Shown piece after piece: positions 913 to 11,098 of a stretch of 34,494 nt of DNA (its first letter is position 1; each line of letters begins with the position of its first letter). Origin of the DNA: Leptolyngbyaceae cyanobacterium CSU_1_4 (lineage in GTDB: Bacteria; Cyanobacteriota; Cyanobacteriia; Elainellales; Elainellaceae); the NCBI GenBank assembly GCA_012034615.1, contig JAAUPA010000019.1, positions 1 through 34,494 of the forward strand, written 5' to 3'. Under the pieces are notes generated by a model. It was given only the letters and a program-made list of their open reading frames with translations, was not told the DNA's origin and searched no databases. Made by a program: the position numbers and the translations under genes.

Positions 913-1613
913 TCAAAACCCGCCTGCCTGTCTGAGCTCTAGCCCTGCGACAGCGGCAAAGATCAGGAATAGGGCACCGCCTAGGGTGGTGATGGTGCGC
1001 TCTGAGATTCGACCACAGACAAAGCGACCACACAGGACAGCGATCGCGGCACAAATCGCATGACCCACAATTGACCCGAGGGTGATCCCTAAGGGGTTAT
1101 TAGATGCTGCTAGGGCAATGGTAGCAAACTGGGTGCGATCGCCCATTCGGCTAAAAAGATAAGGCTAAAGGCTTCGCCAACAATGATCCAAGTTCCTCTC
1201 ACCCAAGCGCCTCGGCGGAAGGATTGTTTAGAAAGCTTAGCTTCTGCCTTTTCCACTGCCTCAGCCGCTTCTTTCTGGTCTTCTAAATTGGGTTGATGAG
1301 TCATCTGAGTGGCATCGTAGAGCAATTTCAGCCCAAAGGCGACAAACAATATCACTTCGGCGCTTTGTACGTAGACTTTGGGAAAGTGGGAAATGGCTTG
1401 TCCCATGAGAACCGAAATGACCGTCATGGTGGTTAAAGCCGCGATCGCCCCTACCAAAACCCAGCGCCGGGGATGGCGCATGGCTAAAATAGCTGTGATA
1501 AAAAAAGTTTTATCGCCTAATTCAGAAAATCCAACCAGTAAAAGTCCTTTAGTAAAAGACTCAAACAGTTGAAGGTTATGCCACCCAGCATTTAATATCC
1601 CTAGCTCAAGCAT
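913..1613 (-). CDS. GDT1/TMEM165 (UPF0016) family manganese exporter, frameshifted in this sequence
   Basis: Membrane transporter with the duplicated three-helix fold of UPF0016; the cyanobacterial homologue in Synechocystis is the Mn exporter Mnx. The first half carries the signature 'ELGDKT' near residue 30. The second half should carry 'EWGDRT'. The reading frame breaks exactly inside that second motif: after '..FLAEW' the frame goes off, while the -1 frame continues with 'GDRTQFATIALAA'. Adding one C to the run 1142-1144 (a G on the coding strand) restores a continuous 233-aa protein, the usual family length. The linker between halves is charged (residues about 110-135). The first ATG at 1613 fits the family N-terminus, with GAGAGG about ten bases upstream. 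A yybP-ykoY riboswitch sits in the leader, which independently supports Mn export. The break is probably a sequencing error. Confidence 0.85.
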
Positions 1614-1737
1614 CCGTCTCGCCTCTCAGAAAATCGTAGTGAGTCTGAGTGAGCTTGATAGACTTTAAAGACAATCCACCAAGCTCACAATGTGAACTTA
1701 GTGAAAGTCTCGCTCCCAAACGCAAAATTTTGCTTTG

Positions 1738-1828
1738 TCGCCTCAGCCAGGTTCATCACCAGTATGTTGACTCAGACGGACTGGTCAGATTAGGTCAACC
1801 TGCTCCAGTAGCTACTCCCTTTCATTAG
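1738..1828 (-). promoter_or_regulatory. yybP-ykoY manganese riboswitch aptamer
   Basis: Read on the minus strand, the leader contains the conserved blocks of the yybP-ykoY family in the right order. First comes AAAGGGAGTAGCTAC (1823-1809). A stem GGTTGAC (1800-1794) follows, closed by the highly conserved GTCAACATACT (1771-1761). Last is CCTGGCTGAGGC (1750-1739). The family binds Mn2+ and switches on Mn exporters. The aptamer lies about 125 nt upstream of the GDT1 start. The stretch between contains a 9-bp inverted repeat (1649-1657 with 1680-1688) that could be part of the expression platform. There is no clear T-run after it, so control of translation is as likely as control of termination. 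Confidence 0.88.
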
Positions 1829-1898: not shown

Positions 1899-2519
1899 TC
1901 AGGGCAGAGGTTTTGCAAGTACGCCATTTAAGAAAATATCTGCCAAACCTTCTGCCATTTCCTGCATTTCATGGGGCGCAGCTTCGGTGGGCATGATGGA
2001 GTCTTGGCTGAAGCCAGCGACGGTGAACATGCCGAGAAACACTTGGGCGACCATGCGAGGATTCATTTGGCGGTAAATGCCTTGAGCCATGGCGGTTTCA
2101 AAGAAGGCTTCGGCAACGTCGGTCATTTTAATAATCACGTCGGTTTGAATGCGCTGCTGTAAGTCGGGATGACATTGGGCTTCGATGAAGCACACGCGCA
2201 GGAGATCGGCATTTTCGTGGAGGTTCATCATTCGGCGACGCATGACTTGAGCGATCGCCTTATAGCTGCCCATTTCGCTGAGTTCTGTTAACAAATCAGT
2301 CAGAATTTCGATCCAACCTTGGGTTGCTACTTCGACCAAAATAGCTTTCTTATTCTCAAAATATCGAAACAGCGTCCCTTCTGCAACGCCTGCTGCTTGG
2401 GCTAATTCGCGGGTTGTTGTGCCCTCAAACCCGCGCCGCGCAAAGAGTCGCTGAGCTGCTTTCAGGATCCGAGTTTGAGTTTCTGCCTCGGTTGGGGGTG
2501 TCGTCCGAAACATGCGCAT
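1899..2519 (-). CDS. TetR/AcrR family transcriptional regulator
   Basis: A 206-aa one-domain repressor. Residues about 12-60 form the TetR N-terminal DNA-binding domain: 'RILKAAQRLFARRGFEGTTTRELAQ', then the recognition helix 'AAGVAEGTLFRYFENKKAIL', which matches the family consensus closely. The C-terminal two thirds is helical ligand-binding/dimerisation sequence with no recognisable ligand signature. The start at 2519 is the first ATG (MRM..); the second Met two codons later is an alternative. It lies between the GGDEF-EAL gene and the Mn exporter on the same strand, but the gap to the latter contains the riboswitch and gives no hint of a shared operon. The target and inducer cannot be inferred. 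Confidence 0.9.
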   Translation of the reverse strand: MRMFRTTPPTEAETQTRILKAAQRLFARRGFEGTTTRELAQAAGVAEGTLFRYFENKKAILVEVATQGWIEILTDLLTELSEMGSYKAIAQVMRRRMMNLHENADLLRVCFIEAQCHPDLQQRIQTDVIIKMTDVAEAFFETAMAQGIYRQMNPRMVAQVFLGMFTVAGFSQDSIMPTEAAPHEMQEMAEGLADIFLNGVLAKPLP

Positions 2520-4430: not shown

Positions 4431-4710
4431 GGATGCCCGTTGTTCCCTACAAAAATTCTTAAGTCCAGTCCGTGATGCCCTTGAGGTGACATACAAAATT
4501 TGTAACAAGCCATTGGTGAAAAGCCTAAAATTCCCTTAAATGCTACCAGAAACCTTCAGTGACTAAATTTTGCAGTCTGTTGCATTTGTGATTAGGGTTC
4601 CCGCAAGGTCTAGGGTTCTCGCAGGGGGAAGTGCTTTGCGGTAAACCTTGGGTTTGCGATCGCTCAAAGACTGGTATAAAAAAATCACGGGCGATCGCGC
4701 TCCGCTCAGG

Positions 4711-4830
4711 AGTGGATGAGTGGATGAGTGGATGAGTGGATGAGTGGATGAGTGGATGAGTGGATGAGTGGATGAGTGCCCCCCATTCACTCATCCACCC
4801 ACTCACCCCTCCACCCCTCCACCCCTCCTC
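4711..4830. repeat. Tandem 8-bp repeat AGTGGATG x8 with facing complementary arm
   Basis: Eight perfect copies of AGTGGATG run from 4711 to 4774, followed by AGTG, a C-run and then ACTCATCCACCCACTCACC. That is largely the reverse complement of the repeat, so an 11-bp hairpin (GTGGATGAGTG with CACTCATCCAC) can form. Three copies of CCACCCCT follow. The block lies in the 450-bp gap between the divergent c-di-GMP gene and glucokinase. No gene is supported here; the apparent protein of 'THPLIHSS' units on the minus strand is a product of the repeat. Confidence 0.9.
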
Positions 4831-8690: not shown

Positions 8691-8740
8691 GTCGAATGTA
8701 ATGGGTCGAATGTAATGGGTCGAATGTAATGGGTCGAATG
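8691..8740. repeat. 14-bp tandem repeat upstream of the DUF2949 gene
   Basis: Three perfect copies of GTCGAATGTAATGG (8691-8732) are followed by a partial fourth. They lie in the promoter or leader of the DUF2949 gene, beginning about 20 bases upstream of its start codon. Whether they affect expression cannot be told from the sequence. Confidence 0.9.
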
Positions 8741-9801: not shown

Positions 9802-9856
9802 CATTCCCAACCTGTCTTTTTGAACCTGTCTTTTTGAAAAAGATGGGTTGGGAATG
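9802..9856. terminator. Bidirectional terminator hairpin
   Basis: Perfect 11-bp arms CATTCCCAACC (9802-9812) and GGTTGGGAATG (9846-9856) enclose a loop made of two tandem copies of CCTGTCTTTTTGAA. It sits exactly between two convergent genes (stops at 9793 and 9872). T-runs occur inside the loop rather than after the stem, so it is not a textbook terminator. Confidence 0.6.
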
Positions 9857-11041: not shown

Positions 11042-11065
11042 GGTAGGGGTGAGTAGGGGTGAGGG

Positions 11066-11098
11066 TAACAAGTTGGTAACAAGTTGGTAACAAGTTGG
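11066..11098. repeat. 11-bp tandem repeat
   Basis: Three perfect copies of TAACAAGTTGG lie immediately upstream of the hydrolase start, in its leader or promoter. They are preceded by a shorter GAGTAGGGGT duplication. Confidence 0.9.

Follow-up and report, generated by a model that had tools for sequence, protein, structure and literature searches.

The window is the whole stretch of DNA analysed, 34,494 nucleotides of a contig from Leptolyngbyaceae cyanobacterium CSU_1_4. On its minus strand lies a gene of the GDT1 family (UPF0016, PF01169), hereafter mnx; the leader of this gene shows blocks L1 and L3 of a yybP-ykoY Mn2+ riboswitch, set in an aptamer of 131 nt. The gene and the parts of the aptamer are as follows.

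1827-1697, minus strand: complete yybP-ykoY-type Mn2+ aptamer (P1.1, P1.2, P2, P3.1, P3.2, P4, loops L1 and L3), recognised by model R1 (108 bits) and by RNAalifold structure and covariation
1824-1819, minus strand: P1.1 5' strand UGAAAG, the switch helix, pairing with CUUUCA at 1707-1702
1819-1811, minus strand: 5' side of the L1 motif, GGGAGUAGC, which takes in part of the P1.2 5' strand; GGGAGUAG in 92 of 93 loci
1770-1762, minus strand: L3 motif UCAACAUAC; UCAACA in 93 of 93 loci
1760-1739, minus strand: P3.2 hairpin GGU/ACC and the 3' side of P3.1/L3, UGGCUGAGGCG; P3.1 is 95.6% paired, with two-sided changes in 9 of 11 pairs
1737-1717, minus strand: P4 hairpin, a hairpin in nearly all relatives; two-sided changes in 4 of 4 counted pairs
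1714-1702, minus strand: P1.2 3' strand, L1 3' side and P1.1 3' strand, AGCGAGACUUUCA; G[CT][GA]AGAC[CT]TTC in 93 of 93 loci
1613-913, minus strand: mnx/GDT1 gene, start ATG at 1613, lying in two frames (1613-1110 and 1146-913)

The upstream neighbour (1899-2519, minus strand) resembles, as judged by eye, a TetR-type regulator and ends about 70 bases before the aptamer. A simple scan of 880-2000 found no sigma-70-like promoter.

Both pieces of mnx match PF01169 above the cut-off (E 3e-20 and 2e-21). The two GDT1 repeats with their E-x-G-D-(K/R)-(S/T) motifs are present, as ELGDKT and, across the frameshift, EWGDRT. The product resembles Mnx/SynPAM71 (GDT1, PF01169), the Mn exporter of Synechocystis, in being encoded by one gene and carrying two E-x-G-D-(K/R)-T motifs; it differs in its longer N-terminus and in the frameshift at the second motif. 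The initial annotation had placed a UPF0016 gene directly downstream of the riboswitch; a GDT1 gene is indeed found there, but it is split by this frameshift, which the annotation did not mention.

The break in the frame lies where a single G is lacking, at GGG 1144-1142 (minus strand) within the second E-x-G-D motif; the same-genus relative L016 has GGGG at this position and an intact single ORF. The lesion is likely to be a sequencing error in the 379-contig draft or a very recent mutation, since differences from L016 elsewhere fall mostly at third positions. The loss of one G from the GGGG run, splitting the frame at this motif, could also mean that the window mnx is a recent pseudogene and that an intact riboswitch controls a truncated product. 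This is rather unlikely, as both sides of the lesion differ from L016 mainly at third positions, both halves match PF01169, and a one-base homopolymer error is plausible in such a draft assembly; it is in any case compatible with the preferred explanation of the element itself. The mnx frames of loci L055 and L022 are also broken, at other places. A programmed frameshift is unsupported: the frame is whole in L016 and in most relatives, and the breaks in L055 and L022 lie elsewhere.

The initial annotation rested on three sequence blocks. All three are present on the minus strand and in order (GGGAGTAGC at 1819-1811, GTCAACATAC at 1771-1762 and CTGGCTGAGGC at 1750-1740), and they are not a chance occurrence: the same order is found before the single-ORF mnx at 48 of 50 loci from relatives, and the window scores 108 bits with a covariance model. 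The first two blocks are L1 and L3. The third is the 3' side of P3/L3; as the closing element it was rejected in favour of GCGAGACTTTCA (1713-1702, minus strand), which pairs with TGAAAG (1824-1819) as P1. The block order common to 48 of the 50 single-gene mnx leaders is UGAAGGGGAGUAGC, a hairpin, UCAACAUAC, CCUGG, a second hairpin and GCGAGACCUUCA; across these leaders, the final block pairs with the first as P1.

The fold is recovered in several ways. RNAalifold gives P1.1, P1.2, P2, P3.1 and P3.2 from the alignment alone, P4 is a hairpin in nearly every aligned sequence, and the minimum free energy fold of the window sequence is the same aptamer fold. At the level of secondary structure, P1 to P4 are arranged round a four-way junction (P1-P3 from RNAalifold, P1-P4 counted). 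When the named structure P1-P4 is counted, 92.6% of cells are paired and 22 of 32 pairs show two-sided changes, well above both controls. Aptamer covariation is 0.385 compared with 0.191 when shuffled (0 of 500), and the result held again for 93 loci aligned by fitting to the covariance model. The switch helix P1.1 is 98.5% paired in alignment A1, and in 4 of 33 sequences a compensatory change turns G-C into A-U. At columns 8/182, a P1 pair, the window has A-U where most sequences have G-C. A chance or clade-specific repeat was rejected on the strength of this covariation, together with the position of the element before mnx only.

Membership of the yybP-ykoY class was assessed with two models. 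The Rfam model RF00080 finds no match in the window at its gathering score; with permissive settings it returns a 10.4-bit fragment, against a cut-off of 45. It matches in 28 of 60 related genomes at 22-43 bits, at positions adjoining PF01169 genes, and none of the 60 is over the cut-off (best 42.8). Model R1, built from 33 cyanobacterial sequences only, gives the window 108 bits (E 3e-23) when run on the 4.9-Mb genome to which the window belongs, where the next best match has 14.8 bits; R1 E-values are rough, as calibration was shortened. R1 also recognises the validated mntP riboswitch of E. coli: within a 4-kb region (L221, NC_000913 1903500-1907500) this leader scores 46.5 bits (E 5.6e-11) and everything else 4.4 bits or less. 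The same leader is not reported by RF00080 at the gathering score. The RF00080 threshold is therefore not diagnostic; it is a database value and no property of the RNA. By sequence and predicted structure, the aptamer is a member of the yybP-ykoY class although the Rfam threshold is unmet, because R1 recognises the E. coli leader that RF00080 misses.

The initial annotation had proposed that the lack of a covariance-model match would refute the riboswitch. Taken literally, the RF00080 result would do so; the 108 bits obtained with R1 speak for the element, and the rule is too strict given that RF00080 also misses E. coli mntP. RF00080 alone was rejected as a test because it is too insensitive for these leaders. 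With the Rfam cut-off as it stands, a widespread clade of the class is missed.

Through R1, the aptamer is homologous in sequence and structure to an experimentally validated member, E. coli mntP. The E. coli leader (RF00080 class) has L1 (GGGGAGUAGC...GCGAGACC) and L3 (GUCAACAUAC) in the same order and in an aligned fold. It likewise precedes a Mn exporter gene, for which translational control has been reported (PMC11647493), but the exporter families differ: MntP in E. coli, GDT1/Mnx in the window. The L. lactis yoaB riboswitch (PDB 4Y1I) shares the P1.1 switch helix, the L1/L3 docking sequences and the Mn-sensing A in the UCA of L3 (PMC9190785). The window has the L1 motif GGGGAGUAG with its GCGAGAC closing side and P1.1 (1819-1811, 1714-1702), and the L3 motif with the Mn-sensing A. 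Matched by motif to the metal-site nucleotides of the L. lactis riboswitch (PMC9190785), the A at 1768 in L3 corresponds to the Mn-sensing A41. One outlier in an earlier set, L036 (G039), has UCGACA, with G in place of the Mn-sensing A, which is otherwise nearly invariant; with C as its predicted partner, this G appears to be paired.

The element is widespread. A scan of 292 genomes across the phylum with R1 gives at least 46 genomes with the same class (up to 119 bits) and at least 4 more distant ones at 32-46 bits; strict filters make these counts a lower bound. All 30 of the scan loci examined lie just upstream of a GDT1 gene, one of them being the window itself with its split frame. Among the 80 best named mnx loci (Elainella, Oculatella, Leptolyngbya, Nostoc, Dolichospermum, Fischerella, Chlorogloeopsis and others), 78 have an R1 match; some of these genomes overlap the R1 training set, while most Nostocales probably do not. 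The exceptions, L173 and L181, both have unrelated leaders. Single-gene mnx loci without the aptamer are L009, L042, L111, L113, L114, L117, L173 and L181, which indicates that some lineages have lost or lack the element.

The GDT1 family also includes the split Hmx1/Hmx2 proteins, Mn importers encoded by two small ORFs and of the same Pfam family as the window gene (PMC11649195). The genome of the window itself contains a split two-ORF pair of Hmx type (G000:C253, L058). The riboswitch is found in none of the examined leaders of such pairs; R1 has no match in 22 leaders of split Hmx-type pairs or of mnx genes without the blocks. The proposal of a Mn riboswitch before a GDT1-family exporter, made in the initial annotation, thus appears well founded on aptamer architecture, covariation, the match to E. 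coli mntP and restriction to the exporter-type gene.

Between the aptamer and the start codon, four strands can pair in a chain.

1705-1691, minus strand: strand A, UUCACUAAGUUCAC, overlapping the P1 3' strand; 15 bp with B
1689-1673, minus strand: strand B, GUGAGCUUGGUG, pairing with A (1689-1675) or, over 16 bp, with C
1664-1649, minus strand: strand C, AUCAAGCUCAC, pairing with B or with D
1630-1614, minus strand: strand D, UCUGAGAGGCGAGACGG, with the Shine-Dalgarno sequence GAGAGG at 1627-1622; cognate C-D pairing z -12.1 in 46 leaders

Strand D (CUGAGAGG...) is complementary to C, C to B and B to A. In 46 leaders, pairing reaches 98.9% for A-B and 90.0% for B-C, and two-sided changes exceed the controls in both; further pair types in A-B are no more numerous than in the shuffles. 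An alignment-free comparison of each leader's own strands with strands swapped between species gives z of -7.1 for A-B, -7.7 for B-C and -12.1 for C-D in the 46 leaders, while the non-cognate combinations A-C, A-D and B-D stay near 0. The same comparison on 48 largely new loci gives -9.7, -8.0 and -10.6; it skipped 44 others in which a simple B pattern or a reading-frame motif was not found, and sequence relatedness is not fully controlled in either set. As predicted pairings, A-B, B-C and C-D covary and are mutually exclusive. In the window, C-D is interrupted by small loops and its helix (-15.9 kcal/mol) is weaker than in most relatives.

These pairings suggest how the leader could act. Without Mn2+, A (1705-1691) and B (1689-1675) would form the 15-bp hairpin and consume the P1 3' strand; C (1664-1649) would then be free to pair with the Shine-Dalgarno-bearing D, turning translation off. 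Mn2+ bound between L1 and L3 would stabilise P1, as reported for L. lactis (PMC9190785). P1 would remove the base of A-B, B would pair with C over 16 bp, and D would be released so that Mnx is made. P1 is incompatible with the base of A-B, A-B with B-C and B-C with C-D, and C-D covers the ribosome site; a Mn2+-stabilised P1 would therefore open D. Switching on in Mn is the right sign for an exporter. The leader is probably a Mn2+-sensing yybP-ykoY riboswitch that turns on Mnx translation; we infer the Mn2+ ligand, the ON direction and the translational level. The suggestion in the initial annotation of translational action or an unusual platform fits the conserved four-strand exchange ending on the Shine-Dalgarno sequence.

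Folding predictions agree with this scheme in part. When P1 is forced in the full leader of the window, A-B falls from 10.0 to 0 bp and B-C rises from 0 to 13.6 bp; predicted accessibility of the Shine-Dalgarno sequence rises only from 0.31 to 0.41. Accessibility calculated from the segment after P1 alone is weak and noisy, and the full-leader calculation is clearer for the window. In equilibrium folding with P1 forced, only 17 of 48 leaders show the switch to B-C and one (L022) moves the opposite way; in most others, a shortened A-B together with C-D remains favoured even with P1 formed. Closing P1 without ligand costs a mean of 7.4 kcal/mol across the 48 leaders. With 17 of 48 switching, most leaders would need kinetics or Mn-dependent docking, which are absent from these energy models.

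The same Mn aptamer could instead act on transcription, with A-B as an intrinsic terminator and P1 as anti-terminator, as in L. lactis yoaB. There, a transcription terminator overlaps P1.1; in the window it is strand A that overlaps, and the chain ends on the Shine-Dalgarno sequence. The A-B hairpin of the window is flagged as terminator-like, with the tail TTGTCTTTAA, and at least 5 T in the 8 positions after the A-B stem are found in 19 of 46 leaders compared with 5.3 at random positions. However, such a tail is missing in the other 27, a run of 4 T occurs in only 10, and the window stem is GC-poor (5 G-C of 14 pairs). A terminator requires neither B-C nor C-D, yet both covary; a pure terminator platform is disfavoured because these pairings would then be unexplained. 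In Synechocystis, excess Mn leaves the level of mnx mRNA as it was (PMC11649195); if that gene has the element, this would speak against a terminator and be in keeping with translational control. Transcriptional control as the general mode is given a small chance; a terminator role of A-B in some species is possible.

The identity of a ligand is unreadable from sequence, and a structured regulator of this class might sense something other than, or besides, Mn2+, such as pH or another divalent metal. Under Mn stress, alkalization is reported to switch on the mntP riboswitch of E. coli (PMC9603457). Such a ligand is nevertheless improbable, given that the L1 and L3 motifs are kept with the Mn-sensing A (L3 in 93 of 93 loci), that the gene is an exporter-type GDT1 member and that Hmx import genes are without the element. 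It is hardly credible that Mn2+ turns Mnx off: the ON direction is read from predicted pairings only, but with P1 forced, predicted Shine-Dalgarno accessibility goes up in 11 of 48 leaders and down in 1, the characterised members of the class are switched on by Mn (PMC9190785, PMC11647493), and an exporter switched off in excess Mn makes little physiological sense.

Photosystem II uses Mn as its metal, and cyanobacteria have to keep Mn levels tightly controlled. According to a review and a 2024 study, ManS/ManR is the sole established Mn-dependent regulator in cyanobacteria (PMC7020235, PMC11649195). One review assigns the GDT1 gene of Anabaena to ManS/ManR and sets it apart from the genes controlled by the riboswitch (PMC7380456); it cites Dambach et al. 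2015 for 328 UPF0016 genes with the riboswitch. Searches of the open-access literature found no description of a cyanobacterial Mn riboswitch, nor any binding or expression results on a copy from a cyanobacterium. The yybP-ykoY class is known; the cyanobacterial clade and the four-strand platform look undescribed in the searchable literature. The search for the A-B-C-D chain covered the cyanobacterial leaders, in which it is found.

If the translational reading is correct, a Mn riboswitch that stands before the exporter but not before importer-type Hmx genes would supply a missing regulator and offer a convenient way to tell which GDT1 genes are Mn exporters. We lean slightly towards a broader role, in which a Mn-ON translational riboswitch with the conserved four-strand platform would be what mainly controls Mn export across many cyanobacteria, leaving mnx mRNA unchanged.

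Elsewhere, the window contains short perfect tandem repeats at 4710-4778 (GAGTGGAT, 8.6 copies), 8691-8740 (GTCGAATGTAATGG, 3.6 copies), 9809-9838 (AACCTGTCTTTTTG, 2.1 copies) and 11064-11098 (GGTAACAAGTT, 3.2 copies).
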